The position numbers and the translations under genes are program-made. From Rheinheimera sp. A13L (GTDB lineage Bacteria > Pseudomonadota > Gammaproteobacteria > Enterobacterales > Alteromonadaceae), in assembly GCF_000217935.1 (NCBI RefSeq), contig NZ_AFHI01000045.1, positions 1-64,000 of the forward strand: a stretch of DNA of 64,000 bases, in the 5' to 3' direction. This document shows, piece after piece, positions 47,671-64,000 of this stretch. A model generated the notes under the pieces. That model was not told where the DNA came from and did no database searches. It saw only the letters and a program-made list of their open reading frames with translations. The stretch's first letter is position 1; the number at the start of each line of letters is the position of its first letter.

Positions 47671-49080
47671 CTACCTTTTCATGTTGAAATTTTCTAATAT
47701 ACCTGACAGCAACAGTTGGTGCAGTTCGCTAAGTTCAGCTGTTGTTAGCCTGGATGGAAATAGCCAAAGCGAGATATTGTCATCATTAAAACTATACAGC
47801 GGCCGCTGGCAATTTAACCAATCACGTACTTGCTGGGACAGTTCGCGATAATGCCCTATTACTGGTTTAACCCAAGCTACACTGTAAAATTGCTCTGACG
47901 CCACAGTTGAACTTACATTTTGAGAGTTCAAAAAATGCAACAAGGCTCCTAAATTTTTTTCTGATACGATCCATTGCTCGCCGTTGGTGCCTGGTACTGC
48001 GTAAACTATAAACTGTAAAGCACTTGCTACTTGCTCAGCTCTAATTCGATTACCAGGTAGTACAGTTACAAGCTTGACTTCGTCCAAATCAGTAACAAAC
48101 TGTACTTCCGGCGAGTATTGACGACAGATACTAGAACCTGTTTTTTCAGGTTCAAAGCTCGAACGAACCACTAGTTCAACAGAACGTCCTTGTAAAGGAA
48201 TGAATGTCTTCGGGTGCAGCACAGGATTACCTAGCTCGGCAAGTCGAACAGCTAATTCCCATGGTACTTGTCTATAAGCTCGTGCTGATGGAACTTTGCG
48301 TGGATCGGCACTAAAAATAGCTTCGACATCGGTCCAAATTTGTACAATGCTGGCGTCCAGCAGTCGGCCGACAATCGTAGCTGAGAAATCACTACCGTTA
48401 CGACCCAAATTGATGCTATTACCAAATTGATCCCGTGCAATAAAGCCAGTAATAATCTGAAAACCATTACTTATTAATGGCTTAAGCAGCTCCTCTGATC
48501 GCCGCCAATTGACTTGCGCATCTTCACCTACTTGCACGTTTAGATACAAAAAATCCCTTGCATCAATTGCTTTTGATTTAAACCCACGATCATGTAATAA
48601 ATTTGCAAGCAAATGACAGGAGAGTAATTCTCCAATAGCCAACACTTCGTTGCTCATCTGTGCTTTAATTTTGAATGGAACTTCCGACATCCATAGATTC
48701 AACTTATTGGTTAATTTTTCCGCGCTGGCTGGCTGCAACGTTTGATTAACCAACGAAGATAAATTCCAAGAGAGCTCTCGCAAATTCCGCTCAAAAATTA
48801 TGGGGTCATTAACGCTATCAATCAGCTCAAGTAAAAAATCGGTTACATCCCCAGGAGCCGATACTACTACAATTGATGAGGTCTCTTTCTGACGCACTAA
48901 CGTATCAGCGACAGCATGAAGACGTTCCGAAGTGGCGAGGCTGCTGCCTCCAAACTTATGAACTACAATATTTTTTTGCCGTTTGTCGGAAATTGACTTC
49001 TCATTATTAAGTAGACAAATTTCATCAGCAGCATAATCATTTATATTGATTTCCTGTAAGTCTTGAATGCTCTCTATCAC
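47671..49080 (-). CDS. Stand-alone aspartokinase (MetL/ThrA type, no homoserine dehydrogenase domain)
   Basis: 469 aa, GTG start after GAAGGGA. After a non-conserved 36-residue leader comes the aspartokinase domain: VVHKFGGSSLA, TGFIARDQFGNSINLGRNGS (LGRNGSD nucleotide and substrate site), IWTDVEAIFSADPRKV and GNPVLHPKT. It most resembles the kinase half of E. coli MetL/ThrA and ends after an ACT-like region of about 150 residues; the dehydrogenase half is absent. It phosphorylates aspartate, the entry to Lys, Thr, Met and DAP. Its place at the end of an NRPS cluster suggests dedicated precursor supply. The ACT region may have lost normal feedback control; this is inference. Confidence 0.85.
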   Translation of the reverse strand: MIESIQDLQEININDYAADEICLLNNEKSISDKRQKNIVVHKFGGSSLATSERLHAVADTLVRQKETSSIVVVSAPGDVTDFLLELIDSVNDPIIFERNLRELSWNLSSLVNQTLQPASAEKLTNKLNLWMSEVPFKIKAQMSNEVLAIGELLSCHLLANLLHDRGFKSKAIDARDFLYLNVQVGEDAQVNWRRSEELLKPLISNGFQIITGFIARDQFGNSINLGRNGSDFSATIVGRLLDASIVQIWTDVEAIFSADPRKVPSARAYRQVPWELAVRLAELGNPVLHPKTFIPLQGRSVELVVRSSFEPEKTGSSICRQYSPEVQFVTDLDEVKLVTVLPGNRIRAEQVASALQFIVYAVPGTNGEQWIVSEKNLGALLHFLNSQNVSSTVASEQFYSVAWVKPVIGHYRELSQQVRDWLNCQRPLYSFNDDNISLWLFPSRLTTAELSELHQLLLSGILENFNMKR

Positions 49081-49398
49081 AGATTTTTCCCTTCAAATAA
49101 CAGAATTCAGTTTCAAAATACCAATCCATTTGAGTTTCTCGAGCTGACTATCACCAACAAACGTTGCAAGAACATGTTCAATCAACTGTTTTCTGAAATC
49201 AGCGTTTTCGGCCCTACGGGTGTGTAGTTTTATCCGTTAAGTTTCTTCAAACTTGGATAACTACTTGCGGGGCTCAAAATTATTATTTGAAAGCGTGCTC
49301 TGAATCAGTAAGACAACGGCTCTAAAGATGCTGAAATCCAGCCAGCTTATCCACGTATTTTGAAGACACGTTTTACAATGACACATACTATCGGTTGC
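49081..49398. other. Gene-free gap with a strong hairpin and a possible gene relic
   Basis: Plus-strand hairpin TTATCC-gtt-AAGTTT-cttc-AAACTT-GGATAA at 49230-49260. On the minus strand a 47-codon stretch with no start codon (about 49231-49091), containing ENADFRKQLIEHVLATFVGD, looks protein-like and may be the 3' relic of a lost gene. No complete gene is supported. Confidence 0.4.
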
Positions 49399-49836
49399 TC
49401 AGACTTTCAACACTGCTAACATATCATCACCATCTTCGTCCATACCTTCTTCAACAAAGCCGAGCTTCTGATAAAACTTGCTTATTTGAACATTTTCTGT
49501 GTCATAACAGACCTCAATCTCTGAAACTGTAGAAATTTGTTTTATCTCCTCTATCGCCAACATAATAGCTTGTTTACCATACCCCTTTTGTTGCTGAGTA
49601 TAATGAATCATCAACCTCCAAATAGAGACTCTTGTATCCGTTTCGGGTACCCACATAATAAATCCGACTAGTTCGTCATCATTATATATTGCTCTCGTTT
49701 GGTAGTGCGGATTGAAACTTGCTTCGACTATCGACCAAGTATTATCAGCTACAAATTCTTTTTGTTCCTCTAACACTTCTAAGTCACAAACATCTTCGTA
49801 ATTACTGTGCGTCACAGCTCGTAACGTTATTGTCAA
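49399..49836 (-). CDS. GNAT family N-acetyltransferase
   Basis: 145 aa, TTG start fixed by the strong GGAGGAG 7 nt upstream. Single GNAT domain: ELVGFIMWVPE, then the acetyl-CoA site QQQKGYGKQAIMLAIEE (Q/RxxGxG/A as QKGYGK) and KFYQKLGFVEEG. It resembles BltD/spermidine-acetyltransferase-type enzymes, so an amine substrate is plausible. In this cluster it could acetylate the peptide, its amino side chain or an intermediate (tailoring or self-protection); both are inference. Confidence 0.8.
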   Translation of the reverse strand: MTITLRAVTHSNYEDVCDLEVLEEQKEFVADNTWSIVEASFNPHYQTRAIYNDDELVGFIMWVPETDTRVSIWRLMIHYTQQQKGYGKQAIMLAIEEIKQISTVSEIEVCYDTENVQISKFYQKLGFVEEGMDEDGDDMLAVLKV

Positions 49837-49975
49837 TTTAGTGCTCCTCCAACTATTCCAGACTTAAAAAACCCATTATTTACTAACTTATTTATAAATC
49901 ACAAATCACTCGCATTTAGTATTTTTGTATAACTATTCACGGGAAAAAAGTAACAAAACTCCTACTCAATGTTTA

Positions 49976-50833
49976 TCATTCATTTTCTTGTTTCTGCGAA
50001 AATAGTTCAGGTAAAAAAGTCTGAATAAAAACCTTTTGTTCATCACTAAGGTCTTCGCTATTTTGCATAGATCTTCTCACGTAGTTTAAATTCGAATGAT
50101 TAACAAAATTCTCTGTTATCGAAATACCTGCCTCAAGATTCCGGACTTGGTGCCAGTGTGTACAAGGTGTAAAGATGATATCTCCAGGATACTGAAAACA
50201 GTGGTATCCTATGGCGTCTCTGAACTTGGGGTGTAGATCATAGTCCGGTATAAAACTGTCAACTTCGCCATCGTAGACATGCGCGGTATACTCAGGCCCA
50301 AAAAATACCCATTCCTTTTTACCTGATATTACTGCATTCCACGCATGGGTCGAACAAATATCTAAATGCATAGAAGAGCCACTATTCTTCGGCCCCATGT
50401 AGATCCAGCGCAATAATAATAATTTGGCGTCAGAATGTAAGATGTCATCGGGGATGCGTCTTTTTATCAGACAATCGAAAGATTCCGATACTTGATAATC
50501 ATTCACTAATTGTTTAAACGCCAAAGAAAACTGCCAGGCGGTTGCGTAATAGGGATCTGATTCTTCACAATTGACGATGTAATCCACATATTCGGCAATC
50601 GACATGTATCGGTAGTCATGTCGATTCTTAGTACGAAAAACCTGCAAACGAAAATGACCCAAATTTTTTCTGAAGTATTCCCATGTCCACTTACTAATAG
50701 CCTCCCATGAAGAGGCACCTCCTTTTATGATAAAGGGTTCCATATTGCCTATGCATTGAAGTACTCTATCGATACTCGGATTACTTAACTCAAGACATGG
50801 CTTGAATGATTTAAATCTACTTTTTTCTACCAT
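49976..50833 (-). CDS. JmjC/cupin_8 family Fe(II)/2-oxoglutarate oxygenase
   Basis: 285 aa. Cupin_8 layout: MEPFIIKGGASSWEAISKWT near the N-terminus (the PxxIxG...W pattern), then the metal site GSSMHLDICSTHAWNAVISG (HxD) and the distal His in CTHWHQVRNLEAGISITENF. Family members hydroxylate protein or free amino-acid side chains. In an NRPS cluster it is a candidate for hydroxylating an amino acid or the peptide. Lies 24 bp after the PhyH gene and is likely co-transcribed. Confidence 0.85.
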   Translation of the reverse strand: MVEKSRFKSFKPCLELSNPSIDRVLQCIGNMEPFIIKGGASSWEAISKWTWEYFRKNLGHFRLQVFRTKNRHDYRYMSIAEYVDYIVNCEESDPYYATAWQFSLAFKQLVNDYQVSESFDCLIKRRIPDDILHSDAKLLLLRWIYMGPKNSGSSMHLDICSTHAWNAVISGKKEWVFFGPEYTAHVYDGEVDSFIPDYDLHPKFRDAIGYHCFQYPGDIIFTPCTHWHQVRNLEAGISITENFVNHSNLNYVRRSMQNSEDLSDEQKVFIQTFLPELFSQKQENE

Positions 50834-50857
50834 TGTTCTTTACTCAGTTTAAATTTT

Positions 50858-51646
50858 TTAAAACCCTTCACAAGTTGCTGTCAGTGGGCTGTTATCTGAT
50901 GCGCAAAGAAACTCAGGTCTTGAATTTCCCGGGGAAATGGTAGGAGCATTTGAAACCGCATTATAGGTAATGAGTAGGAGCGGCCTGTCTTTGGGTGATA
51001 GATTTCCGGAGGAGCTATGCACCAAAAGCGGGTCAAAAAGTATTAAGTCCCCAGCGCTACCTGTTATAAACTTAACGTCTTTTTCGTAAAGTAACGTCTC
51101 AATTGTACTTCCATTTACCTGATAGCTTAGCTGAGACGAAATATCAGATTCCCAAGCTGTATGCTCAACCATTTTTTCACACAAGTCACCCAACTTATGG
51201 CTACCTGGGATAAAACACAACGGACCATGCAACATACTGACATCATGTAACATAATACCAATGTTGAGTAATTGAGGGCGCTCTATACCGTCCCCCTTTT
51301 GCCAAAACACAAAATCCTGATGCCAGGGCCATGCCTGCCCCTTCAATGCTTTCTTAACATTAATTTTAAACTGGTGAACATAACACTGCTCCCCAATATA
51401 AGATTCAGCCAAACTCAACAATTTCTCGTTAGCACAAAGACTTAGAAAGAATCCATCGTATAAGTGTAACCCGTGCAGTGCACGCAATGTCTCACCATCG
51501 TCCTCCATTGCAACGCCATCATGTCTTTCCGATATATATTTCTCTAGTCTGTCATTGATTTTATCGACGTATTCACCAGATAGAAAATTGGTTAGAACAA
51601 TGAATCCTTGCTCCCTAATTTCATTAACTATTTCGAGTTTTTCCAT
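50858..51646 (-). CDS. Phytanoyl-CoA dioxygenase (PhyH) family oxygenase
   Basis: The ATG at 51646 (MEKLEIVNEIREQGFIVLTN) follows GAGGATC and gives 262 aa. Fe ligands: WPWHQDFVFW (HxD) and a later His in FDPLLVHSSSGNLSP, with an Arg shortly after for 2-oxoglutarate. The GPLCFIPGSHK block is like the ectoine hydroxylase and NRPS-associated hydroxylases. Because the Asp of HxD is present it should hydroxylate rather than halogenate (SyrB2-type halogenases have HxA/G). Substrate probably a free or carrier-bound amino acid. Confidence 0.87.
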   Translation of the reverse strand: MEKLEIVNEIREQGFIVLTNFLSGEYVDKINDRLEKYISERHDGVAMEDDGETLRALHGLHLYDGFFLSLCANEKLLSLAESYIGEQCYVHQFKINVKKALKGQAWPWHQDFVFWQKGDGIERPQLLNIGIMLHDVSMLHGPLCFIPGSHKLGDLCEKMVEHTAWESDISSQLSYQVNGSTIETLLYEKDVKFITGSAGDLILFDPLLVHSSSGNLSPKDRPLLLITYNAVSNAPTISPGNSRPEFLCASDNSPLTATCEGF

Positions 51647-51803
51647 TTTGATCCTCAATCGCAAAATTTTGGCCAGACAATAATAGCCACTTGGTTCTAA
51701 CTTAAAAAATCGGATGACATATCCAAACAGGCTAAAAGACTTTAAAGACGCCTCATTGTAGCCACGGCTTACAACTGCTAATGTGGCTTTGAGAAGCCAT
51801 TTG

Positions 51804-54062
51804 TCAAAAAGCGTATCTGACTTTTAGAGTAACTAAATCTTCTTTGACCCCCCTAAAAGAGTAATCAAATAAGTTGCCAAAATTTGCTTTTGACAAATCA
51901 TCAGTAAAAATACTTCCCTGACGCGAATAAACCACCATCACGTCCGAAAAAGGAGCAAAAAAGTAGCGATATTTCAACTGCATAGACAACTGGCTGTCTG
52001 CAAAATCCTCAGCACGACCTTGCGAAACTAATCCCTGTTCCGAGATATTAAACAACTCAAGACCTTTTGCCGACAAACCGTTCCACTGAAGTCGCATGTT
52101 TAATTCCTGATTCTGCGAAATCAACCATAAGAACTTTAAATCCAGCTCTCTAAAACTACGTTTGAACCTTTCTAATTGCCCTAGCCCATTACCTATTAAC
52201 CAGTCATTACTCTCAAGTAAATTAGCGCTCAGCTCCATATTGACGCTGTCATTAAATGCATATCGAATGATAGGTTCGACAGCATGAGTCCAACCACTCA
52301 AACCCTCTTGATAGTAATTCCATACAAAAACAAACTGCGTATTACTGCCCGAAGGCGTTGCTATTTGTCCAACGATATCTTTTTGTGACGGTAAGTTAAC
52401 GGAACCAAAACCGAAAGAAATAAGGTCGTCTACTCCAGACAACTTATAGTTCAGTTCAAACAGATATTCCCAGGCATCATAGTCTTTTAGCGTCCCCGCC
52501 ACGTTTAGACTAGTTGCAAGCTGCTCACCATCAAAGTTCCGATTGAATGCAGTACCAGCCTCCAGATAAAGTTCATAAACATTGTCATTTAAGTCGTACA
52601 GAGTAGTATCAGCCGATAACTCCAGTTTCTTAGTGTTGTTCCTTTCAATGAAACCAGCATCATTCAAGTCAAGCTGTGCGTCAAACAACGTTAGTTGCGC
52701 CGAAATGTTGCTGCCTCGGTTGAGAGCATATTTCCCATCCAGATATAGTCCTGTCCCAGTACTCCAAAGTTGATCATCAATACGAGACCCCAGTAGCAAG
52801 ACATCAAATACTCCTTCCTGCGACCACAAACTAAGATCGATAGCGACAGAGTATGCTTTGCGCTCAATCTCAGGGCGGTCGGTAACAGTAAGTAGACTCC
52901 CAACATAACCCTCCTGTAAATGGGCTTTACTTCGAGCAACGAAAAAGGTTTTACCTTGTGCCGCACCAACATCCTTTTCTGAAGCATACATTAACCCACT
53001 ATCTACAGTAGTTCCTACAGACACAAATTTTCCGGCATATTCTAGTTTGGCTGGAACGCTAACAGCTCCATCTGTAGCAGCACCGATCCTACGAGTATTA
53101 ACTAGAACAAACTTATTCTTGTTATCTTTTAAGTCAAAAAGACTATGATTTTCTGTGAAAAAAGTCCTGTTTTCCGGAAAAAAAACTTCTACGGGTGAAA
53201 AGTTTGCGACCAGTTCATCGGCATCGGCAGTTCCAAAGTCTGGCATAATTGTTGCCATAAATAACTTGTCTGTTGAAGGGCGATATAGCAGATCGCCTCC
53301 AAGATTATATTCCTGCTTTTGCCGTTGAGTGTCATATTGAAGCGTGAGCTGGGGAATAAAAGTAAAGTTAGGGGCAACATCTACCGCCTCGGACTGTATT
53401 GGATACAGTTCCCTTAAAAAATTACTTCTGCTCCAATGAGTATTAGGAAAGGAGTAATCAGAACCTTTTTTACTAATGACTCGATTGAACCAAATACCCA
53501 TTTTTTTTGATTTATCCCCATCCTTGGAAATGTAAAGTGCGATATTCCAAGGTAAAAATATCTCGCTGTACCATGCCTGCTTATCTTCTGAAACAGCAAA
53601 CTTCCAGTGACCTTCCCAATCGTCACTAAACTGATTGCCATTAACATAAATACCCTCACCAAAGCCGCCCCCCAATGCAACAGTAAACTCAAAAGCACTG
53701 GAGCCTTTCCCCTCAAAGTCCACTACAACTCTATTGAAATCAGAACGAACCAGTTGGTCCTGGCGATTATAGATTCGGGTACGTTCATCCCAATTTTGAT
53801 GATTAACAAAACCAATGTAGAGACCTTTTTCATCAGTAAAAAATCTCGCCTGTGTTTTCTCATCGGCAGGCTCTCCGGTGTCGGGATCCGTAAAGACGAA
53901 ATCGTCAATAATTTGGGCGGTCTGCCATTGGACTTCGTCCAACTTACCGTCAATTGTGATTTCTGCAGCCTGAATTACTACAAACGTATTTGTAAGTAGA
54001 AGGAAACAAAATAGTCGTAGCAATATGAACACTGCTGAAGGCCACAGCCGTTTAGTCTGCAC
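51804..54062 (-). CDS. CBM9-like / DUF5916 outer-membrane protein
   Basis: 752 aa, GTG start overlapping the dapE-like stop by 11 bp, with GAGGA upstream. Signal peptide about 1-32 (FCFLLLTNTFVVIQAAE), then a CBM9-like beta domain (about 35-220: ITIDGKLDEVQWQTAQIIDD, ARFFTDEKGLYIGF) and a DUF5916-type beta barrel (FPENRTFFTENHSLFDL, C-terminal TLKVRYAF ending in Phe). The family occurs widely in marine Gammaproteobacteria and Bacteroidetes; function unknown. Coupled to a biosynthetic gene here, so it may help product release or uptake across the outer membrane (inference). Confidence 0.82.
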   Translation of the reverse strand: MQTKRLWPSAVFILLRLFCFLLLTNTFVVIQAAEITIDGKLDEVQWQTAQIIDDFVFTDPDTGEPADEKTQARFFTDEKGLYIGFVNHQNWDERTRIYNRQDQLVRSDFNRVVVDFEGKGSSAFEFTVALGGGFGEGIYVNGNQFSDDWEGHWKFAVSEDKQAWYSEIFLPWNIALYISKDGDKSKKMGIWFNRVISKKGSDYSFPNTHWSRSNFLRELYPIQSEAVDVAPNFTFIPQLTLQYDTQRQKQEYNLGGDLLYRPSTDKLFMATIMPDFGTADADELVANFSPVEVFFPENRTFFTENHSLFDLKDNKNKFVLVNTRRIGAATDGAVSVPAKLEYAGKFVSVGTTVDSGLMYASEKDVGAAQGKTFFVARSKAHLQEGYVGSLLTVTDRPEIERKAYSVAIDLSLWSQEGVFDVLLLGSRIDDQLWSTGTGLYLDGKYALNRGSNISAQLTLFDAQLDLNDAGFIERNNTKKLELSADTTLYDLNDNVYELYLEAGTAFNRNFDGEQLATSLNVAGTLKDYDAWEYLFELNYKLSGVDDLISFGFGSVNLPSQKDIVGQIATPSGSNTQFVFVWNYYQEGLSGWTHAVEPIIRYAFNDSVNMELSANLLESNDWLIGNGLGQLERFKRSFRELDLKFLWLISQNQELNMRLQWNGLSAKGLELFNISEQGLVSQGRAEDFADSQLSMQLKYRYFFAPFSDVMVVYSRQGSIFTDDLSKANFGNLFDYSFRGVKEDLVTLKVRYAF

Positions 54063-55254
54063 GAGGTTCTTCCTCTAGTAAGCGTTGAAATAGTGCTTTA
54101 TAGATTTCGGCTAATACGCAGATGTCCTTAGTAGTAACATGCTCATTTTCTTGGTGAATCGTTTTGTTAGGCAAACCCAACTCCACAATCTGAGGGCAAA
54201 TATCCTTGAAAAACCGGCCATCAGAAGTGCCACCTGAAGTAGAGACTCTTGGAAAAAGCCCTAACTGTTGATGGATCACAGTTTCGACTTCTTTAATAAG
54301 AGAAAGACGGCCCTCAGAGCAGGATGATAAATAAGGATCGCAATTTCGATAGGAACTCAGGGTGAAGTCAGAAGTCACCTCTGAAACTATCTGGTTCACC
54401 ATCTTAATCAGCTCTGTTTCCCGATACTGAGCAGAGTAACGAATATTGAAACTCAATGACACCTTGTCGGGGATAACGTTATCAGTCCACTTACCTGAAT
54501 CAATGTGGGTGATTTGCAGTGATGTTCCGGGGAAATCGTCACTGCCACTGTCCCAGGTGATTGATTTTAGTTTCTCGATGACAGTTGAAGCAATATGAAT
54601 AGCGTTTGTTCCCTGCGAAGGATAAGCTACATGAGCACTCCTGCCACATAGAGATACATCGAAACTCAATGCCCCTCGACGTCCAACTTTTAACATATCG
54701 CCTGTGTGGTTAATGGCGGTTGGCTCTCCAATCACACAATAGTCGAGTTTCACGCCTCGTTTAGACAGTAAATCAACGATAAGTTTTGAGCCATATTCCG
54801 CTTCACCTTCTTCGTCACTGGTGATTAAAAACCACAATCGACCATTGAATTGACCATACTCTTGCAGTAGCGCATGTGTTGCAGCCAATGCCGCTGCTAC
54901 ACCACCTTTCATGTCAGCAACCCCTCTACCATAAAGCTTATCGTCACTTCGGATGGCACGAAACGGCGGTCGTATCCACTTGGAGAGATTACCAGCAGGA
55001 ACAACATCTATATGTCCACAAAATGCCACATTTGGACCATATCCAAGACCAATAGATGCAAGCAGGTTAGTAACGCCATTTTGCTGAAGTATCTCAACCT
55101 CAGCTCCCATTTGCTCCAACTTCTCCGCTAACCATTTAGCGCATCCTGCATCATCAGGAGTCACTGATTCGAATGCAACAAGCTCTTCAGTAAAAGACAG
55201 TGCATTATCAAATAATGTATTTGTGGCTGTTTTAAGTAATATCTGCGTGTTCAT
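54052..55254 (-). CDS. M20 family metallohydrolase, DapE/ArgE-like
   Basis: 400 aa. Dinuclear zinc site: AFCGHIDVVPAG (HxD), YGRGVADMKGGVAAA, TSDEEGEAEYGS and VIGEPTA. The C-terminal STSGGTSDGRF and ELGLPNKTIHQENEHV are hallmarks of succinyl-diaminopimelate desuccinylase (NKTIHQxNE). It is probably a second, cluster-embedded DapE-type enzyme, acting on an N-succinyl or N-acyl diamino acid; a housekeeping DapE is expected elsewhere but cannot be seen. Its end overlaps the DUF5916 gene. Confidence 0.82.
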   Translation of the reverse strand: MNTQILLKTATNTLFDNALSFTEELVAFESVTPDDAGCAKWLAEKLEQMGAEVEILQQNGVTNLLASIGLGYGPNVAFCGHIDVVPAGNLSKWIRPPFRAIRSDDKLYGRGVADMKGGVAAALAATHALLQEYGQFNGRLWFLITSDEEGEAEYGSKLIVDLLSKRGVKLDYCVIGEPTAINHTGDMLKVGRRGALSFDVSLCGRSAHVAYPSQGTNAIHIASTVIEKLKSITWDSGSDDFPGTSLQITHIDSGKWTDNVIPDKVSLSFNIRYSAQYRETELIKMVNQIVSEVTSDFTLSSYRNCDPYLSSCSEGRLSLIKEVETVIHQQLGLFPRVSTSGGTSDGRFFKDICPQIVELGLPNKTIHQENEHVTTKDICVLAEIYKALFQRLLEEEPRAD

Positions 55255-55786
55255 GCTGACTTATCCTGCACTCCATTGGGAATAGTGTTTGACTATGAAT
55301 TAGCACTCAGACTTAATCTGATTCTGAGCGCTCTCCTTGGTTACAAAATTGCGCCCTATATAAATTGTTAAGATTTACTCGCTTTGAGTCCAAATCCCAT
55401 GAGTACAATAAAATGTGGCTATACTCTGTGTTTCACTGTTATCAGATACTCGAATAAATGGCAGCACCGTGGATTACTGCATTAGCATAACCGCTACCCT
55501 TGATCAAAATTCTGCTAATTTACCAGTATTTATTTCCGGTTAAGACCAGCTACAAGTCTATAAAAAATGTAAATTCCAGAAAGAACACAACATATTAGGT
55601 ATTTAAAATATTGCCCTCACGTGTGAGATCAATATTGATTGATCGATCCTACACAGTGCTCTATCAAACAGTCAATAAGAGAGACTGAAAAATTGTAAGC
55701 CTCTGTTTATAAAATCAAATATGCTCACTGTGCATGAGCATCAACTGCCTCGCTGCAGGCTTCTCATCACGCACAATGGCATTGCC
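55255..55786. other. Gene-free region upstream of the DapE-like gene
   Basis: About 530 bp, AT-rich, without a supported gene. Holds CTCAGA...TCTGAG dyads around 55306-55330 (could pair in two ways) and the palindrome ATCAATATTGAT near 55628-55639. It probably contains an internal promoter for the downstream half of the cluster, but none is convincing by eye. Confidence 0.4.
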
Positions 55787-55945
55787 CTATTGTTGGTGAT
55801 CTGGTTTAAAGTCACTGGCAAGCAATCCCACACGCCCGTCGTGCGCGTGGGGTAACAGACTAAAAGGCATCAAATTCTTGCATGGTGAAACTTCCTCGTA
55901 AAACAAGTCATTTTCAGTGTTTTTAAGCTCTGACTGCATATTCAT
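55787..55945 (-). CDS. Possible 52-aa small ORF in the NRPS cluster
   Basis: Minus-strand ATG at 55945 (a second ATG two codons on), TAG at 55787-55789. Begins MNMQSELKNTENDLFYEEVS and ends GLLASDFKPDHQQ. It starts 16 bp after the acylase stop on the same strand. The sequence is not low-complexity, but I recognise no family, and the ribosome-binding site (AGTGAGT) is poor. Could be a small protein, a precursor peptide or chance. Confidence 0.3.
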   Translation of the reverse strand: MNMQSELKNTENDLFYEEVSPCKNLMPFSLLPHAHDGRVGLLASDFKPDHQQ

Positions 55946-55961
55946 ACTCACTTAGAGCTGG

Positions 55962-58388
55962 TCAGTGAATTGCCTTATTCGCAAGTGTGTCTGAGTTGCC
56001 AAGACTCAGCCTTGAAATCTCCGCTTTTTCAATTTCTTTCTTCGTAAAGGGCAGCTCGTGCAAGCCAGCGTTTTGCGAATACAAACGAGATTGTTGATGG
56101 GCGTAATCTGAGCTGCCATCAGAGGACTGGGAATAAGTCAAGATCCCCCTGGCAATGACCTTGTCCTGAATATACTCCACCGCCATAATCCAGCTGGAAC
56201 CGAACCGAATATGATAGCCTGATTCTGTCAAACCTGACTCTAATTCTTCTTCTGACTCATGATCAAACACTGCATCATAATAGTGGCGGGGCTGCAGGGT
56301 TCTGTCCCATGTCCACGCGGCAATCATATTAAAGCCGCCCTCCTCTTCAAATAATCCTGGCCAAAACAATTTTTGCCCTGCAGAATTTCCTTGTGGCGTA
56401 GAGGCTTCAAAAAATTGATAGTCTGCAACGCTGCTATCTAAACTTATTCCGGCCTTGCTAAGGTTTACCGCAACATGGGCAAGTTTTGCAAGACTTTCAA
56501 CAGTCGCTTTGAAGCTACGTGGGGTATTAAGTGGATCTTGCGCGGAAAATGGTACGGAAAAATCCTCTGATGAGTTGATCATAAACGCTAATTCCCGTAA
56601 CAATAAACTGCCTTTCGCTGACTTATCAAATCTCCCATTCCACGCTGCAATGACCTGACACGCCGGCGATAAAACAGTACTGTATTCAGCTTTCAAACTC
56701 TGCACCTTTGCCAGCAACGCTGAGTTTTTACACATGCTGCGTAAGTCCGGCAGAATCAGTTCAGCCAAGTAAGAGCGGGTAGAAAACATCGTTGCCTCAA
56801 GTTCCTCCATAGAGAACCTCTGGTCCTCGCCTCGCTCTTCTTTTAACAGAGTCAGACTCATTCGAGTTCTGAACGACAGTTCTGATTTTTCTTTGCCCAG
56901 CAGTGGTGAAAAGCCTTCCAATGGTTTATCCACATTAGTGGCCCAGTGAGAGTCGTTTGCATTTTGCACATAGCTACGAGTGCTTAGAATTGGGATTTGT
57001 TCGTAACTGATGTAGTCATCAAATACCATATGTGAATACTGCCCAGGCAGCATGGTTAAATTATGGTTCTCTCGTACGGACGCAATTTCTTCACTTTCAG
57101 CTATTAGTCGCAAGGCTTCGGCCGGCAATGCAGGTACAGCAGCGTCACCTATAAAAAGGGCTTTACCTTCCTTACCGGTAATCAAAGTATTGTTGAAAAT
57201 CAGACCATTATGTTGCTTGAAAACGTCTTTAACTGCTTGCAAACTATCAGCCCGGTTCAGTGCCAGCCAGTGATCCACCATTTGGATGTTATATTCATTA
57301 GCATCTTTGATAACGTAAAAATGACTCTTATCCCAAGGCATCATATCGTTCTCAACAATCCGTCCGATATGGGTAAAATACATGGGTCTGGACAAAGTTT
57401 GGTATCCATCATCTACTTTGACCACAACCTCAATCAAGCGCTTTTGAACATCCATGATCTGTCCGTCAAACTCATAAGTTTGCAGTGAATCAGGGCCAGT
57501 ACTCATACGGTAGATAACAAAATGCTCTGCAGAAGAAAAAGTATGAGTCCATGCAATATCCTTATTAAAACCAATGTTTATCACGCCAGGAAAGCCAATT
57601 AATGAAGCCCCCATGGTATCAAAATCATTTTCCACTATGGCGTGAGATTGCCAGAATTGCAGATCACCTTCGTAGGGAAAATGTGGGTTTGCCAGTAACA
57701 TACCAGATTTGCCTTTGGTATATTCAGAACCTAGAGCCCAAGCATTTGAACCAATATTAAAAGGCAAATCTCTATGGGTGGTTAACCTGACCAGAGATTC
57801 GCTTTCGTCGTCGGGGCTGGCAATATAGTAATCTTCCAAAAAGTTCATGGCGCCAGGAAAAACCGCAATAGAGAATAAATAACCGAGCACATCATATTGC
57901 TTTATAGGACGTACCCAAGGTTCATCAATACAGGATTTGTGAGGTTTATCTTTCACCTTCCTAGCTGCTGCCAGATACTTGTTATACCCTGCAGCAAAAC
58001 CTTGAATCAAGGCTCGGGCTTCAGGACTCAGATCTGACCAGAGAGCTTCTGCATTATCTACCAAGGCCAGTGCTTTGTAGCCGAAGTCTTCGATGATATG
58101 TTGATTATCGCCAGCTTCGTTGCGATGGGCACCAAAGAAGCGCGCCCGCTCCCCCTGAATACGAAGGTAGTTATCCGCCAATGTACAAAGGTGATCTTCA
58201 GCTTGAGCATAGCCACTGCCAAACCCCAGGTTAGCAAGACTATCGGCACGAATATGGGCAATGCCATGGGTTGTTCTTACCAGTTCTGCACTATAATTTT
58301 CTTTATTCATAGGTTTGTCTTGTGCCTGAACTGCTCTAACAAACAATGCTACAGAAAACAACATGACTAGCAACATGACTTTATTCAT
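55962..58388 (-). CDS. Secreted penicillin-acylase / PvdQ-type Ntn hydrolase
   Basis: ATG at 58388 (MNKVMLLVMLFSVALFVRAV) six nt after GAGGCG, 808 aa; signal peptide about 1-22. Ntn-hydrolase precursor with alpha chain, linker and beta chain: RTTHGIAHIRADSLANLGFG and GSGYAQAEDH in alpha, and the autocleavage site NIG/SNAWALGSEYTKGKS giving the N-terminal catalytic Ser, then NPHFPYEGD and GFPGVINIGFNKDIAWTHTF. Closest to aculeacin/AHL acylases. In pyoverdine-type systems PvdQ removes the fatty acyl chain from the exported peptide in the periplasm. Here it sits two genes after a PvdE-type exporter, so the same role is likely. Confidence 0.88.
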   Translation of the reverse strand: MNKVMLLVMLFSVALFVRAVQAQDKPMNKENYSAELVRTTHGIAHIRADSLANLGFGSGYAQAEDHLCTLADNYLRIQGERARFFGAHRNEAGDNQHIIEDFGYKALALVDNAEALWSDLSPEARALIQGFAAGYNKYLAAARKVKDKPHKSCIDEPWVRPIKQYDVLGYLFSIAVFPGAMNFLEDYYIASPDDESESLVRLTTHRDLPFNIGSNAWALGSEYTKGKSGMLLANPHFPYEGDLQFWQSHAIVENDFDTMGASLIGFPGVINIGFNKDIAWTHTFSSAEHFVIYRMSTGPDSLQTYEFDGQIMDVQKRLIEVVVKVDDGYQTLSRPMYFTHIGRIVENDMMPWDKSHFYVIKDANEYNIQMVDHWLALNRADSLQAVKDVFKQHNGLIFNNTLITGKEGKALFIGDAAVPALPAEALRLIAESEEIASVRENHNLTMLPGQYSHMVFDDYISYEQIPILSTRSYVQNANDSHWATNVDKPLEGFSPLLGKEKSELSFRTRMSLTLLKEERGEDQRFSMEELEATMFSTRSYLAELILPDLRSMCKNSALLAKVQSLKAEYSTVLSPACQVIAAWNGRFDKSAKGSLLLRELAFMINSSEDFSVPFSAQDPLNTPRSFKATVESLAKLAHVAVNLSKAGISLDSSVADYQFFEASTPQGNSAGQKLFWPGLFEEEGGFNMIAAWTWDRTLQPRHYYDAVFDHESEEELESGLTESGYHIRFGSSWIMAVEYIQDKVIARGILTYSQSSDGSSDYAHQQSRLYSQNAGLHELPFTKKEIEKAEISRLSLGNSDTLANKAIH

Positions 58389-58510
58389 TATTTCGCCTCG
58401 TATGGGGGCCATTTAACACAAACTGAAATCTGTGGGGTTTTTGTTCTACTACACACTTTAGGTGCCTTCGCAGCTACGTTAAAGTTCGCTTTCCTTATGT
58501 ATTTCGGGAA

Positions 58511-59260
58511 CTACATGCCGGTCAGTCGCCTGATTTCTGAAAATACAATGTGCAGCGCTTCTCTTTCTGCTGCCGTCAAGTCAGGATGCCAGATATCCAT
58601 CAATAAACAGATCCGGTTTTGATCTGAGTGATTGTGGGCATGATGCTCATAGGAATAATCAAATATCAGGCATTTACCCTCCTGCCAGTTTCTGGGTTCA
58701 TTGGCCACTGTGATCTCACAACCTGCTTCAGGAATATCAACTGCCAGTTGCAAGTTCAAAGTAAAGTTCCATAGATCAGAGTGAGGTTTTATTTCTGCAC
58801 CTGGGTGCAACAATGAGAAATGGACTTCTAATAAAGGGCAATGCCAATCACGCAGTTCATTTTGAAACACATCCCAAGTCACCGGAACTACCTGCTGAAC
58901 TTCCGGTTTCGGTTTTTCATTCCGATACAAATACAGCGCACTCCAATCCTTTTGCGCCCCCAAGTAATGCTCGTAATTTACAAGAGTCGAAGACTTTTGC
59001 CGAACAGCTTCACGCACTTCTTCCTTGATAGCTGGCGCTACAGCTTCCAATCTTTGGACCAGAGGCTTGAGTTCACACATATTCTCAATGTCCAGCCAAG
59101 GAGTGGTAGACAAGCCTTTCATTATATATTTTGCCCCGCTTTGTAAGGGATGACGGTCTTCGGGGCCAGCATCGAACATTTCAGCCACACGATCCAGACA
59201 ATCCTGACCGTACTTTGCTTTTATACCCTGCAATTTGTCTTCAAACATATCTAACATCAT
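58511..59260 (-). CDS. Aspartyl/asparaginyl beta-hydroxylase family protein
   Basis: 249 aa, AAGGA five nt before the ATG. C-terminal Asp_Arg_Hydrox domain (about 80-245): HFSLLHPGAEIKPHSDLWNF, then WQEGKCLIFDYSYEHHAHNH and DQNRICLLMDIWHPDLT, containing the two metal His and the 2-oxoglutarate Arg typical of this family, which uses a two-His site. Likely hydroxylates the beta carbon of an Asp/Asn or related residue. It is the third Fe/2OG-type oxygenase in the cluster. Confidence 0.88.
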   Translation of the reverse strand: MMLDMFEDKLQGIKAKYGQDCLDRVAEMFDAGPEDRHPLQSGAKYIMKGLSTTPWLDIENMCELKPLVQRLEAVAPAIKEEVREAVRQKSSTLVNYEHYLGAQKDWSALYLYRNEKPKPEVQQVVPVTWDVFQNELRDWHCPLLEVHFSLLHPGAEIKPHSDLWNFTLNLQLAVDIPEAGCEITVANEPRNWQEGKCLIFDYSYEHHAHNHSDQNRICLLMDIWHPDLTAAEREALHIVFSEIRRLTGM

Positions 59261-59291
59261 ATTGTCCTTATTCTTGAACTTCAGTTATACC

Positions 59292-60965
59292 TTAGACAGA
59301 CACAGAACTACTCATTGATGCAGCTGTGGTTGTAGCATCAATATGATTCAGTCTTGTGTATTCAATGCTGTCAATATTTCCTTCTTCAAAAGTGACCAGT
59401 CTGTCAGCCACTGAAAAATATTTATCATCGTGGCTAATCACAATCACAGTTTTACCTTTATTTTTTAGCTCCGTAAGTAACTCTTCGTAGAAGAATCTAC
59501 GGAAATAGGGGTCCTGATCCGCAGCCCATTCATCAAATACATAAACAGGTGCGTCTTCCAAGTAGGCTAGCAGCAGCGCTAAACGTTTTCTTTGGCCATG
59601 AGATAATTTAGTGGTAGAAAATTTACCATTCTCAACCTGGACCTTGTCGGATAGTTGCAACTTTTCGAGGTATTTTCTGATGTCGTCATCTGAAACCAAC
59701 TCCCCATTGCGATTTATCACAGAATCAAACAGATAAAAATCTGAATGTATGACGCTAAACAGATTTTGGTATCCTATTAGCAAGTCGGGGGTGATTTTGG
59801 TTTCGTTCACCTGAATAGTCCCAGAATCAATCTGATACAAACCAATTAATAGTTTCGCAAATGTAGATTTACCACTACCATTCCCCCCCTTAATGATCAC
59901 TACTTCGCCACGATGAATGTCGATATTAAAGGGGCCTGAAACAAAATGATTGTCTTCCTGTTCATAGTGAAAAGATGCTTGTCTAAAGGAAATTGTAGAC
60001 CAGTTATCAGGAAGGGATTTCTCTTTGGATTCGAAATCAATACACTGTTCATCAGAAAATGCCAACTTATCTAATTTTCGTATTGCAATCATCGCTTTAG
60101 TTATATCTTCTTGGGAAGATAATAAGTAGTCGATCGGCCCTAACAGGAATGTCAAAATAAAGATAAAGCTCAAGATATCAGTGCTTTCACCCAGGCCAAA
60201 TGCGCTATGTGCAAAAATCACACTACCCAGACAGAGAAATAATAAGATTTGCCCCCAACTTTCCGTCAAATTCCAGAACCATTCAGATTTAAGATCAGAG
60301 CTGTTTATTTCATTTAGCGAAGGTGTAACATCGTTCTGATAGAAGGCCTTTTTACGATTACTGTTATTGTTGAGTTCTTTTACACCATCAACCAGTGATT
60401 TAAATTGCTTGTGCAACTCATCGTAATCCTCACGATATTTCTCGTCATACTCTTCTGCCCGGTTAATAAATAGCGCCGATACCAGCAATCCCAAGGGCAG
60501 CACCACTATAAGCACTAAAAATAGACTTAGAGATTTGAACGCCAAAAAACCAAGACAAATAACAGTGGTAAGAAAGTTATAAATATATCGCGGCATAGTA
60601 GCGATGCCACCGGAAATATCGCTAACATCAGTGGTTAAGCTCGCCTGTACTTTATGCCCTCCCATTTTGTCCAGCACATTAAATGGTGTATTTAAAATAC
60701 GTTTCACCAGCGCACTACGCACTTCAGACTTTATGTGAATACTTAGTTTAGTCATAAAATAGTTTGCAATATTACTCACTATAAAAAGACATACCAAGCC
60801 TAGAGAAAACTTAATCATCCAACCAGAAAGGTCAGCATTAATACTCTCAATCGAATTATCTGCCAACAGAGTTATCAACCAAAGACCAAAAAAGGCACTG
60901 GCAGCACCGATAATACTGTTTGCAATTATTTTATATTTATTTCTCTTAATAAGTTCAATAACCAT
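59292..60965 (-). CDS. Cyclic-peptide-export ABC transporter (PvdE/SyrD family)
   Basis: 557 aa, fused membrane and ATPase domains. Six helices in residues 1-300, then an ATPase with Walker A IIKGGNGSGKSTFAKLL, signature LSHGQRKRLALLLAYLE, Walker B PVYVFDEWAADQDPYFRRFF and the switch His in VIVISHDD. The DEWAADQDPxFRRxFYEELL stretch is diagnostic of the SyrD/PvdE branch, which moves NRPS peptides to the periplasm. Immediately downstream of the NRPS gene, so it most likely exports that product. Confidence 0.93.
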   Translation of the reverse strand: MVIELIKRNKYKIIANSIIGAASAFFGLWLITLLADNSIESINADLSGWMIKFSLGLVCLFIVSNIANYFMTKLSIHIKSEVRSALVKRILNTPFNVLDKMGGHKVQASLTTDVSDISGGIATMPRYIYNFLTTVICLGFLAFKSLSLFLVLIVVLPLGLLVSALFINRAEEYDEKYREDYDELHKQFKSLVDGVKELNNNSNRKKAFYQNDVTPSLNEINSSDLKSEWFWNLTESWGQILLFLCLGSVIFAHSAFGLGESTDILSFIFILTFLLGPIDYLLSSQEDITKAMIAIRKLDKLAFSDEQCIDFESKEKSLPDNWSTISFRQASFHYEQEDNHFVSGPFNIDIHRGEVVIIKGGNGSGKSTFAKLLIGLYQIDSGTIQVNETKITPDLLIGYQNLFSVIHSDFYLFDSVINRNGELVSDDDIRKYLEKLQLSDKVQVENGKFSTTKLSHGQRKRLALLLAYLEDAPVYVFDEWAADQDPYFRRFFYEELLTELKNKGKTVIVISHDDKYFSVADRLVTFEEGNIDSIEYTRLNHIDATTTAASMSSSVSV

Positions 60966-60990
60966 AGCAACGCTTCTTTATGTTATAGGC

Positions 60991-61010: not shown

Positions 61011-61029
61011 AATATTATTGGATAAGATT

Positions 61030-64000
61030 TTAAACAGAACACCAACAGGTAACTGTCCAAACACCACCGACAAACACTTTGGTTTGCTGTTTTTTCAGCC
61101 AAGATGTATTTTCCAGTAATTCAGTGGAACCGGTCACGTTTAAGAAATATAACCGATACCCTTTCGACACTACATCATGGTATAAATTGTCGAGTATTTT
61201 TTTCTTCGTCTCCATTTCAAAGCTGTCAAAACAATAAACAGCGGTGTTTGCTGCAGCAAATTGATACAGCGTAGCATCCGTCACCACCACTTCATGGGAT
61301 CTGGCTTTCACATGTTCAGCAGGGAGCTTTGCCAAATTCTCTTTCGCAGAGACAGCTAATTCTTCAAACAATTCCAGACCCATTACTTTCGCAAAAGGAT
61401 ATTGCATGGCGGTAAACAAAACCCGACCTTTACCACACCCTAAGTCGACAAAATTCAGGCTGGATTGTTCTTCTTGTAACATTTCAATAGCCCCTCTTAT
61501 CACGTTGTAAAGGGTAGGCATATAGCGCACAATCTTCTCGTCAGAAATCTGCTTGTACTGATCACCAACTGCAACTATGCCATCCGAATCACAAATAACA
61601 GGCTCTGTATTGGAAGAAATCTGATCCAATTGTAAAAACACATCATCATCCTCAACTCCAAACAGAACTTTAGAGTAAAGATTTAATGTGTGTTTGGCTG
61701 CGTCAACCCCAAATTCAATATGAATATCATCAGCCAATAAGGCTCTCGCTAAAGCATCAGTGGCATTGTCATGCTGGTTGCACGCAATCACACAATCCAG
61801 CGATGTGCTCAGAATACTGGCAAATTCTTCATTTGCCCTGTTTTCTACGCGGATAACTTCAACATTATTTTTATGTTCAGTTAAAAGTAAAAAATCTCGC
61901 CCTTCCAGGTTGACTAAATGCCGGCAAGGCGCATCTATATCGCTAACATAGTTTTTGCAGCGGCTCTTCATTGCTACAATCAAAGAGTCAAGATCGGTGA
62001 TCTCTTGTGGGGTTGTCTTTCGGTGCACCACACACTCGCTACAAATGACTCTCGCTAAATCAATTGCTTCACGACCAGAGAAGAGATCAAAATGTCCACC
62101 ATTAATCAGTTCCATCTTCACTTCTTCTTTACAATAAGCCTGGATCTGTTGGCGGATGACCTCGCGTTTACTAATCAAATCGCTTTCCCTTGCGAAGATT
62201 AACAGTAGTTCACCTGATAAAACACCACTGGGTTCGTAATCGCTGGCAAACTCTGATTGACGATTGAAAGCATTAATCACTGTATCAGTGTAATCAGAGT
62301 CAGTAATGCCTTCATCTTCAAAATATTCAATTAATTCGTCATCTGAGCAAGGTTCGTCCTGATACCCCATTAACATGGAGTCAATAATTACAACCCTGAC
62401 ACGTCGACCTTCAGCTTCCAGAGCAAGCGCCATTTCAAAAGCGATGTTGGCACCTACGGAAAATCCAGACAGAGTGATTTCTTCGTCTGGACATGACGCT
62501 AGTATGCTCTTGGTAAACACGGCAATCATGCTTTCAAAAGAGTCAAATCCTTCTTCTCCGTTTAACGCCGGGTCTTCAAAGACTAATAACTCATACTGCT
62601 CTGCCAGTGCCACACCAAACTCGTAAAACGAAATCGAGGACATGCCAGCACCGGGCACCAGGAACAGAGGAGGTTTATCTCGCGCAATATTACAAACTGG
62701 TACCAGTATGCTCTTGTTCGCCAGGTTTTCTTTCTGCAATGAATCGGCTAGGCCTTTTATGGTTGGATTGCGCACAAATTCTGACGCAAGAATTGATTTT
62801 TGTAGTTTCTCTTTCACCTCATACATCACTTTGATGACAAGTATAGAACTACCACCTAATTGGAAAAAACTGTCGTTTATATCTATTGTTTCCGGGCGGA
62901 TTCGTAAAACACTTGCCCAGATATCAACCAACTGAGTTTCTAATTCAGTTGTAGGCTCCATCAACTCAAAGGGTGATTCACTCTCATTCCCGGTTAACTT
63001 CGCCAACGCATTTTTGTCAACTTTACCATTTATGGTGAGTGGCCAGTCTTCGACAATAATAATCTGGCCGGGAATCATATAGTCTGGTAGCTGCTCGCTC
63101 AGTGCAGACTTCAATGCCCTGCTAAAGTCTTTATCAGTGTCAAATTCTTTCGCGCCTTGTTTCTTAACATAGGCTACCAGATTAAGACTTCCATCAATTT
63201 CTTTGGTTAAGACGATTGCAGAGTCAACCAGAACATTTTGTGCCAGCGTTTCTTCAATCTCAATAAGCTCAACCCGAAATCCTCTTATTTTAACCTGATC
63301 GTCCAGTCGCCCCATGAATTGAAGATTACCGTCAGATAACCGGCGAACCTGGTCGCCAGTTTTGTATAGTTTACGATAGCTATCTGGCATGTTCTCCTGG
63401 TAAAAAGGATTGTCGACAAAGCTGGCATTTGTTTGGCGATCCTTGTTCAGATAACCTCTGGACAGCCCCGGCCCACTGATAGCCAGCTCACCGACGCAGT
63501 CCTTGGGAGTTAATGTCAAATCATGATTAATAATGTACACAGCATAATTGATGTTGGCTTTGCCAATCGGTATGACATCTAAGTCTAAACTACGAGCAGA
63601 TACTGGATAAGACGTGGCAGTAATGGTCGCTTCGGTAGGGCCATAGGTGTTCACCAATTGAGTATAGTCACCAAACTTTTCCATATGATTACGCGCTGCT
63701 TGCACAGAGAGTGCCTCACCGCCAACAATAACCATTCTCAAAGACATTATCTCAGCATGCTTAGGATATGAAACCATTGATGACCAAAACGCTGTAGGCA
63801 GAGATGCCACTGTAATCTTGTGGCGATTACAAAACTCACTAAACGCTGCAAGTCCCTGAACACATTCTTTATCTTTAATTACCAGGGTCGCACCACTGCA
63901 CAAAGCGCCGAAAAACTCCTCAACAAAGATATCAAAACTCAGGCTGGAGAACTGCAATACTCTGTCTGTATCCGAAAATCTATATTCTTTGCTTATATGA
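61030..64000 (-). CDS. Nonribosomal peptide synthetase, 3' part: A-PCP-TE-methyltransferase
   Basis: Open to the right window edge (989 codons seen; upstream modules lie beyond). Counting from the TTG at 63957: adenylation domain to about 320 (A4 SLSFDIFVEE, A5 LVNTYGPTEA, A7 YKTGD, A8 GRLDDQVKIRGFRVEL, A10 NGKVDK), carrier domain about 336-408 (FFQLGGSSILV), type I thioesterase about 418-645 (GFSVGAN nucleophile, ARESD, NGGHFDLFSG His), an unassigned linker 650-790, and a class I SAM methyltransferase domain about 795-975 (FVDLGCGKGRVL). A methyltransferase after the TE is unusual. Hand-read specificity code D-I-E-S-I-G-T-I-T-K resembles Lys-type codes. Followed by the exporter gene. Confidence 0.93.
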   Translation of the reverse strand, partial: HISKEYRFSDTDRVLQFSSLSFDIFVEEFFGALCSGATLVIKDKECVQGLAAFSEFCNRHKITVASLPTAFWSSMVSYPKHAEIMSLRMVIVGGEALSVQAARNHMEKFGDYTQLVNTYGPTEATITATSYPVSARSLDLDVIPIGKANINYAVYIINHDLTLTPKDCVGELAISGPGLSRGYLNKDRQTNASFVDNPFYQENMPDSYRKLYKTGDQVRRLSDGNLQFMGRLDDQVKIRGFRVELIEIEETLAQNVLVDSAIVLTKEIDGSLNLVAYVKKQGAKEFDTDKDFSRALKSALSEQLPDYMIPGQIIIVEDWPLTINGKVDKNALAKLTGNESESPFELMEPTTELETQLVDIWASVLRIRPETIDINDSFFQLGGSSILVIKVMYEVKEKLQKSILASEFVRNPTIKGLADSLQKENLANKSILVPVCNIARDKPPLFLVPGAGMSSISFYEFGVALAEQYELLVFEDPALNGEEGFDSFESMIAVFTKSILASCPDEEITLSGFSVGANIAFEMALALEAEGRRVRVVIIDSMLMGYQDEPCSDDELIEYFEDEGITDSDYTDTVINAFNRQSEFASDYEPSGVLSGELLLIFARESDLISKREVIRQQIQAYCKEEVKMELINGGHFDLFSGREAIDLARVICSECVVHRKTTPQEITDLDSLIVAMKSRCKNYVSDIDAPCRHLVNLEGRDFLLLTEHKNNVEVIRVENRANEEFASILSTSLDCVIACNQHDNATDALARALLADDIHIEFGVDAAKHTLNLYSKVLFGVEDDDVFLQLDQISSNTEPVICDSDGIVAVGDQYKQISDEKIVRYMPTLYNVIRGAIEMLQEEQSSLNFVDLGCGKGRVLFTAMQYPFAKVMGLELFEELAVSAKENLAKLPAEHVKARSHEVVVTDATLYQFAAANTAVYCFDSFEMETKKKILDNLYHDVVSKGYRLYFLNVTGSTELLENTSWLKKQQTKVFVGGVWTVTCWCSV

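Follow-up and report, generated by a model that had tools for sequence, protein, structure and literature searches.

A diverged odilorhabdin-type gene cluster in Rheinheimera sp. A13L and its probable product, a new odilorhabdin relative

Introduction

A run of minus-strand genes in Rheinheimera sp. A13L combines a nonribosomal peptide synthetase (NRPS) with enzymes of the lysine route, which raises the question of what peptide the locus makes and what the amino acid enzymes do in it. The window analysed here is the first 64,000 bases of a contig of 193,874 bases. An initial annotation of this window proposed an undescribed NRPS cluster in which an aspartokinase and a DapE paralogue either supply a precursor or replace housekeeping enzymes targeted by the product.

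Extent and setting of the cluster

Pfam and NCBIfam scans place an aspartokinase, a DapE, a PvdE-type exporter, a PvdQ-like acylase, three oxygenases and an NRPS on the minus strand, where the initial annotation had put them. A GNAT, a DUF5916 protein and a tRNA-Arg, which it had not named, are also present. The run of genes is real, but it is the downstream end only of a larger cluster. The sequence to the right of the window has been obtained, and in it the cluster goes on to about 109.3 kb (109275). The whole cluster spans 47.7 to 109.3 kb of the contig (~62 kb) and holds six NRPS genes with 11 modules; the window ends inside it. The features are as follows, in contig positions.

46718..46794, plus strand: tRNA-Arg (ccg), found with ARAGORN; left edge of the island
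47671..49080, minus strand: aspartokinase-like protein, MetL-derived, 469 aa (PF00696, 130.5 bits)
49399..49836, minus strand: GNAT
49976..50833, minus strand: Cupin_8/JmjC oxygenase (second JmjC)
50858..51664, minus strand: PhyH oxygenase, like leucine hydroxylase and EctD structures
51804..54062, minus strand: DUF5916 protein with a signal-peptide-like start (by eye); overlaps the DapE gene by 11 bases
54052..55254, minus strand: DapE-family hydrolase (TIGR01246, 387.8 bits, cutoff 361.8)
55962..58412, minus strand: PvdQ-like Ntn acylase (PF01804, 352.3 bits; NCBIfam PvdQ, 437.5 bits, below the cutoff of 950)
58511..59260, minus strand: Asp/Asn beta-hydroxylase family oxygenase
59292..60965, minus strand: PvdE/cyclic-peptide-type ABC exporter (TIGR01194, 395.6 bits, cutoff 286.2)
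61030-66186, minus strand: NRPS 6, module 11, thioesterase and methyltransferase-like domain; crosses the window end at 64000
66567-73268, minus strand: NRPS 5, 2 modules
73268-76771, minus strand: NRPS 4, 1 module
76873-78123, minus strand: TauD oxygenase with a TubC-like docking domain (25.7 bits, cutoff 26)
78126-81587, minus strand: NRPS 3, 1 module
81581-91573, minus strand: NRPS 2, 3 modules
91570-101280, minus strand: NRPS 1, 3 modules
101814-102677, minus strand: JmjC/cupin (first JmjC), outside the window
102699-104024, minus strand: EctB, above the equivalog cutoff, just outside the window
106380-107468, minus strand: 362-aa ORF, inside the island
107663-108397, minus strand: PPTase, outside the window
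108460-109275, minus strand: type II thioesterase, outside the window

The cluster lies on an island. The G+C content is 43.6% at 46622-109754, compared with 47.5% to the left (window 1-46621) and 47.3% to the right (to 140000). Four genus mates have been fetched around the left flank gene; the stretches of G013 and G008 end before the right flank. By exact-string search, the same tRNA sequence stands beside the same flank gene region in three of the four (G013, G017 and G002), while the 3' part of the tRNA has no exact repeat of at least 13 bases elsewhere in the 96 kb examined. In G017 the left flank genes (97–99% identical) and the right flank genes (82–99%) are separated by about 5 kb; the corresponding distance in G002 is about 15.5 kb. 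Since the flank genes match on both sides, A13L carries about 63 kb at a site of ~5 kb in G017. Near the same left flank and tRNA-Arg, G013 has a different NRPS gene (C32:119518-128199, 2893 aa, 31% identical to A13L NRPS 2), and islands of this kind may thus have a hotspot here.

Upstream of the NRPS genes, a promoter scan found 15 sites where chance alone would give 19.3. Neither Pfam (at 1e-3) nor NCBIfam (at 1e-10) has a match to the 362-aa ORF, which adjoins a stretch of about 2.3 kb with short ORFs only.

Likeness to the odilorhabdin locus

Odilorhabdins are described as peptide antibiotics from nematode symbionts that act on the 30S ribosome. In the accessible text of PMC8749412, the odilorhabdin (odl) locus has been assigned to Xenorhabdus nematophila and some Photorhabdus and consists of four NRPS genes (32.5 kb) preceded by ectB, gene b and oatA, the last of these a GNAT gene. 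The same text reports the locus and close OatA orthologs (at least 70% identity) in Xenorhabdus and Photorhabdus only. The printed odilorhabdin structure is linear and cationic and begins with Lys, and its legend lists no acyl group.

An EctB match at 1e-100 has been found in two of 30 genomes of a Xenorhabdus-like genus. One of the two, G773, has the odl layout, with NRPS genes over 32,553 bases, and is taken here as the odl locus of X. nematophila because layout and NRPS span both fit. In G772, from the same genus, an EctB 55% identical to that of A13L lies beside a single 1044-aa NRPS-like gene (C72:100397-104936), and the 80 of 130 kb read there hold no odl-type set.

The A13L and G773 clusters are homologous gene by gene. 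They share EctB (64% identity), the JmjC b gene (first JmjC, 47%), an OatA-type GNAT (40%) and an assembly line (NRPS 1, 40%; NRPS 2, 38%; NRPS 5, 37%). Downstream of the NRPS genes, they share the PvdE-type exporter (62%), the Asp/Asn hydroxylase (60%), the PvdQ-like acylase (50%) and the second JmjC (64% over 181 aa, the G773 ORF being only 187 aa long). On the other hand, the kinase, DapE, DUF5916 protein, PhyH oxygenase, docking TauD oxygenase and C-terminal methyltransferase-like domain are additions of A13L. In 74 kb of G773, no ORF of at least 110 aa matches the A13L kinase, DapE or DUF5916 protein, and the single DapE match of that genome lies elsewhere than the odl locus. Because the stretch of G773 that was read has a cluster with neither of them, the kinase and DapE are not needed for such a peptide. 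The GNAT of A13L also stands at the opposite end of its cluster, and its identity to the OatA-like gene of G773 is only 40% over 145 aa, below the level of at least 70% used in PMC8749412 for OatA orthologs. The statement of the initial annotation that no described cluster has this gene set therefore does not hold for the core, which is that of the odilorhabdin cluster; the kinase, DapE, DUF5916 protein and PhyH oxygenase are absent from odl.

The assembly line and the predicted peptide

The adenylation codes have been read from an alignment anchored on the A13L Ser module, with K as the tenth letter by convention. For modules 1 to 4 of A13L they are DIESIGTVTK, DVWQMIGDDK, DVWEMTGDDK and DVWHISLIDK; for modules 5 to 8, DMENSGAVNK, DIVNITQVVK, DATKVGEVGK and DAEDVGAITK; and for modules 9 to 11, DIESIGTVTK, DMVNFTHVCK and DIESIGTITK. 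Setting the G773 codes against the printed NOSO-95C gives Lys1 DIESIGTVTK, Dab2 DVWQMIGDDK, Gly4 DILQIGMVWK, Orn5 DMENSGAVNK, Pro6 DMENVSHVVK, His7 DSPVIAEVWK, Lys8 DIESIGTVLK, Arg9 DIGDLGIIDK and Lys10 DIESIGTIVK. A13L and G773 have identical codes at module 1 (Lys), module 2 (Dab) and module 5 (Orn). The Ser, Asn and Orn codes are taken in their usual sense. The available text of PMC12283262 gives DVWQMIGDDK as a beta-hydroxy-Dab code and DIGDLGIIDK as a dehydro-Arg code, and prints an Arg code pattern that module 8 of A13L fits; the idea that module 8 loads diaminopimelate has been dropped for this reason. A literature search with the codes as words found no paper.

A tree of 31 adenylation domains (of its 28 inner branches, 13 starred and 9 open) groups the first modules of the three clusters compared, those of A13L, G773 and G646 (described below), at 98/95. 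Four Dab domains (100/100) and four Orn domains (100/98) also form groups, as do the Pro-type domains with A13L module 10 (100/100), the Ser pair (100/100) and the module-8 pair (100/100). Modules 3 and 6 of A13L fall in the Dab and Pro-type clades. Modules 7, 9 and 11 have no firm place in this tree, and for modules 9 and 11 only the code points to Lys. Taken together, the line is predicted to make Lys-Dab-Dab-Ser-D-Orn-Pro-Asn-Arg-Lys-X-Lys, with Lys or Dab at five of the 11 adenylation domains (modules 1, 2, 3, 9 and 11).

The N-terminal half of the odilorhabdin, Lys1-Dab2-Dab3-Gly4-Orn5-Pro6, recurs in this prediction save for Ser at position 4: like odl, the line starts Lys-Dab and has Orn5 and a Pro-type module 6. 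The rest differs. Where odl continues His7-Lys8-dehydroArg9-Lys10, A13L has Asn7-Arg8-Lys9, a Pro-type module 10 and Lys11, which gives 11 modules against ten residues and puts Arg one place earlier. The dehydro-Arg code of odl (DIGDLGIIDK in G773) is absent from A13L, and so is the atypical final C domain that both G773 and G646 have. Thus Ser4, Asn7, the shifted Arg and these two absences indicate that the C-terminal half of the A13L peptide differs. Since the C-terminal half of odl is not found, A13L is an odl-type variant and not a producer of the known odilorhabdins.

The third module of A13L is complete. The odl1-like gene of G773 shows C and carrier motifs in its third module (residues about 2337-2793) and no A-domain motif, so Dab3 may be loaded there by the second A domain.

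In a tree of 32 C domains, for which the tool warns of long branches, the domains that open the lines of the three clusters fall together in a single clade on a long stem (100/100), in keeping with a starter domain that takes an acyl group. C2, C3, C5 and C6 of A13L belong to a nine-member clade (100/99) and look like dual condensation/epimerisation domains, by motifs that we take to be diagnostic. This placement fits D-Orn5. The dual look of C2, however, would predict a D-residue at position 1, which counts against the reading preferred here. The C2 of G773 is also in the dual-type clade, although NOSO-95C is printed with L-Lys1, and the stereochemistry calls are therefore weak.

A syntenic cluster in a second genome and the rarity of the type

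The first module of A13L has a match at 1e-120 in 19 of 394 genomes of the order sample, A13L included. G646 stands out among them at 43%, with at most 33% in the other genomes, and carries a syntenic cluster at C42:249103-300878. Its identities to A13L are 62% for EctB, 47% for the JmjC, 39% for NRPS 1, 44% for NRPS 2, 62% for the exporter, 60% for the hydroxylase, 47% for the acylase, 55% for DapE, 41% for the DUF5916 protein, 59% for the second JmjC and 34% for the kinase. The two clusters agree in gene order, including acylase-DapE-DUF5916-JmjC-kinase, in 11 modules, in Ser4 and in having a thioesterase and a methyltransferase. They differ in several points: in G646, module 3 is an Orn module, the codes of modules 7 and 10 are of the dehydro-Arg type, the TE-methyltransferase is a separate gene, and the kinase derives from the MetL of G646 itself. 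No GNAT or PhyH match was found in the 100 kb of G646 that was read. About 16 kb downstream of this cluster, G646 has a 3560-aa NRPS-like ORF (C42:316713-327395), apparently another biosynthetic locus.

Narrower probes, run on samples with one genome per species, return A13L only: the TE-methyltransferase part at 1e-60 in one of 395 genomes of the family, and the first 1000 aa of NRPS 1 at 1e-150 in one of 369 genomes of the class sample. Among plasmids, three probes (kinase, TE-methyltransferase part and exporter) gave no match of at least 60% identity, the last of these searches covering 5000 records. None of the papers among the literature matches listed, which mostly exclude subscription papers, describes an odl-type cluster in another genus. 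One hint is an Antarctic metagenome cluster that the accessible part of PMC11237469 links to odilorhabdin NOSO-95A by a matching score.

Probable precursor supply by the cluster kinase and EctB

The cluster kinase scores 204.1 bits with TIGR00657, just below the cutoff of 208.7. It is an extra copy, but "second aspartokinase", as the initial annotation had it, is too simple: there are five aspartokinase matches in the genome, one of them the cluster copy. The nearest of them is a MetL-type protein, 52% identical, and the three others are less similar. Both the aspartokinase and DapE have other copies in the genome, so the cluster genes are not the only ones, which would have spoken against the initial annotation. 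A long MetL-type match at 1e-100 occurs once in each of 22 genomes of the genus; a second, short one is seen in A13L alone. A search for close relatives by exact peptide patterns in genome contigs gave 76 loci, with best segments at 27–37% and no evident ortholog.

The dehydrogenase half is present in both MetLs scanned, while the cluster kinase has no Homoserine_dh match. Three other kinases of the A13L genome (ThrA, LysC and a third one) have ACT domains; none was found in the two MetLs or the two cluster kinases at E values up to 0.01. MetL is not known to be feedback-inhibited. The kinase motifs are kept in the A13L copy, and the G646 cluster copy has DPG in place of DPR. In a tree of 24 rows, the A13L copy, which has the AA_kinase domain, groups with 15 MetLs of its genus (99/99), and the G646 cluster copy pairs with the MetL of G646 itself (89/83). 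A single origin of the two cluster kinases is rejected (p-AU 0.0008), in a tree with long rows and an odd letter make-up of the G646 rows, and with the tested group named after the tree had been seen. Judged from these sequences, each of the two cluster kinases arose independently, from the MetL of its own host lineage.

EctB makes 2,4-diaminobutyrate (Dab) from aspartate semialdehyde, and the cluster copy is the sole close EctB in the A13L genome, the next best being 28% identical. A MetL-derived kinase with no recognisable regulatory domain would raise aspartyl phosphate, which the host's own Asd would convert to aspartate semialdehyde; EctB would turn this into Dab, and further aspartate semialdehyde may enter the lysine route. 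Because EctB is in the cluster and no other close EctB exists, unregulated supply of aspartate semialdehyde for Dab and some lysine is the simplest reading; the lack of such a kinase in the G773 cluster counts against it. Ectoine operons with a dedicated aspartokinase likewise combine it with EctB in one cluster, but the A13L cluster proteins scanned include no EctA or EctC, and the kinase is a trimmed MetL. The proposal in the initial annotation that the cluster makes its own Lys or diamino-acid precursor thus fares well for the kinase, given the presence of EctB, the five Lys or Dab domains and a kinase slot filled separately in two clusters. For DapE, which belongs to a branch 38–40% identical to housekeeping DapEs, it is one of two candidate roles.

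DapE and the DUF5916 protein

The cluster DapE passes its equivalog cutoff and keeps the DapE motifs in an alignment to solved DapEs. The nearest other DapE-like copy in the A13L genome, on contig C62, is 40% identical. The cluster enzyme is 38–40% identical to the housekeeping-type DapEs of A13L, G646 and G773, which are 56–61% identical to one another, and 55% identical to the cluster DapE of G646. From these pairwise identities, it looks like an old separate branch and not a fresh spare copy. The DUF5916 gene adjoins DapE in G646 too.

The paralogue may help in the lysine route, and this role in lysine supply is tentatively retained. It could instead be a cluster-specific deacylase whose substrate is an N-acylated diamino acid or the N-acylated peptide, for example one that reverses side-chain amine acylation; the rest of the main reading would be unaffected. 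The cluster DapEs, at 55% to each other and 38–42% to the housekeeping DapEs of the three genomes, would suit such a role, as would the pairing of DapE with DUF5916 in both clusters and the presence of an amine-acylating GNAT candidate beside the A13L copy. Against it stand the equivalog score and the conserved motifs, and G646 has the DapE with no GNAT match in the 100 kb read. Having no evident signal peptide, the enzyme would also act inside the cell. We give the deacylase somewhat less than even odds.

A third DapE-like gene of G646 (C47:119866-121050), 47% identical to that of A13L and with no NRPS cluster in the 34 kb read around it, may tell the role of this branch. The gap between the acylase and DapE genes is 707 bases in A13L (window 55255-55961) and about 20 bases in G646, and could hold a promoter.

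Proposed tailoring, export, deacylation and self-protection

The second JmjC is common to all three clusters compared, and the Asp/Asn beta-hydroxylase is 60% identical in both G773 and G646, whereas the PhyH oxygenase occurs in the A13L cluster only. These oxygenases would hydroxylate some residues of the peptide. The methyltransferase-like domain of NRPS 6 scores just below Pfam's cutoffs.

The exporter is 62% identical in both G773 and G646. The acylase carries GSNAW at residue 222, and its start, by eye, resembles a signal peptide; the GSNAW nucleophile motif is kept in all three cluster acylases. In pyoverdine maturation, the exporter PvdE and the acylase PvdQ are of the same families; the accessible part of PMC10587159 describes PvdQ and GdnD as removing the acyl group from an N-acyl precursor. 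The A13L acylase misses the PvdQ equivalog cutoff, and no siderophore genes are among the A13L proteins scanned. The available text of the odl paper (PMC8749412) does not use the word "acylase". An exporter, an acylase and a starter-like C domain common to three clusters, together with a printed peptide that starts with Lys and has no acyl group, suggest an N-acyl precursor. The peptide would carry this N-terminal acyl group when made, leave the cell through the PvdE-type transporter and then be deacylated by the PvdQ-like acylase.

OatA is described in the accessible text as acetylating side-chain amines of odilorhabdins and as conferring resistance. The OatA-like GNAT of A13L would protect the producer in the same way and is a better resistance candidate than replacement enzymes.

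Weighing the readings of the locus

The main reading, to which we assign a probability of about 0.72, is an odilorhabdin-type cluster for an 11-residue cationic peptide that would be made as an N-acyl precursor and deacylated, with protection by the GNAT and supply by the kinase and EctB; the product, its 30S target, the prodrug step, the precursor flow and the GNAT function are what we infer from homology. Alternatively, the product might be a cationic lipopeptide active on membranes or LPS with its fatty acid still in place, like ogipeptins and alterins, and the acylase a detoxifying enzyme. This would also account for a first C domain in a separate clade, as for an acyl-taking starter, and for the dominance of cationic residues, and a PvdQ-like acylase has been discussed in the accessible literature as a possible lipopeptide detoxifier. 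The ogipeptins and alterins of Pseudoalteromonas (PMC7764243, available text) are likewise cationic NRPS peptides with Dab and hydroxy-Dab. However, the acylase, exporter and first C domain all have odl counterparts, and the odl product is printed as linear and beginning with Lys; ogipeptins and alterins are heptapeptide rings with the fatty acid kept, as opposed to 11 modules. We consider a lipopeptide unlikely. Ogipeptin and alterin, considered beside turnercyclamycin, had been set aside on residue number (7 against 11 adenylation domains).

Self-resistance, in which the aspartokinase and DapE copies replace housekeeping enzymes inhibited by the product, was the second proposal of the initial annotation, and both are indeed extra copies beside biosynthetic genes. 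The nearest product class is reported to act on the 30S subunit, however, several other aspartokinases and a housekeeping-type DapE remain in the genome, and separate recruitment of a MetL-derived kinase in two lineages suits supply better than a shared target. With the GNAT as the better candidate, the replacement idea is abandoned as very improbable. A pyoverdine-style siderophore cluster would explain the PvdE-type exporter, the PvdQ-like acylase and the Asp/Asn hydroxylase, but neither a TonB receptor nor an ornithine N-hydroxylase is among the cluster proteins scanned, and the likeness to odl extends module by module; we regard this origin as hardly credible.

Implications

The odilorhabdins are, in the accessible literature, a recent antibiotic class with the drug candidate NOSO-502. 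The A13L cluster lies outside the two genera in which odl has been reported, in a genome of another family. It is possible, though we hold this only tentatively, that the odl type is a wider mobile family in which the kinase half of the host MetL has been captured more than once as an unregulated pump, with a peptide-dedicated DapE branch acting on acylated diamino acids, and that the product is an odilorhabdin of 11 residues that has a new C-terminal half and is altered by the fused methyltransferase-like domain.

Together, the diverged A13L cluster and the G646 cluster would give natural variants of the odilorhabdin class, and their comparison would separate the conserved portion of the peptide, its N-terminal half, from the variable one. 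If the proposed role of the kinase is true, the repeated capture of MetL would offer a testable example of how an antibiotic locus redirects primary metabolism for its own supply.
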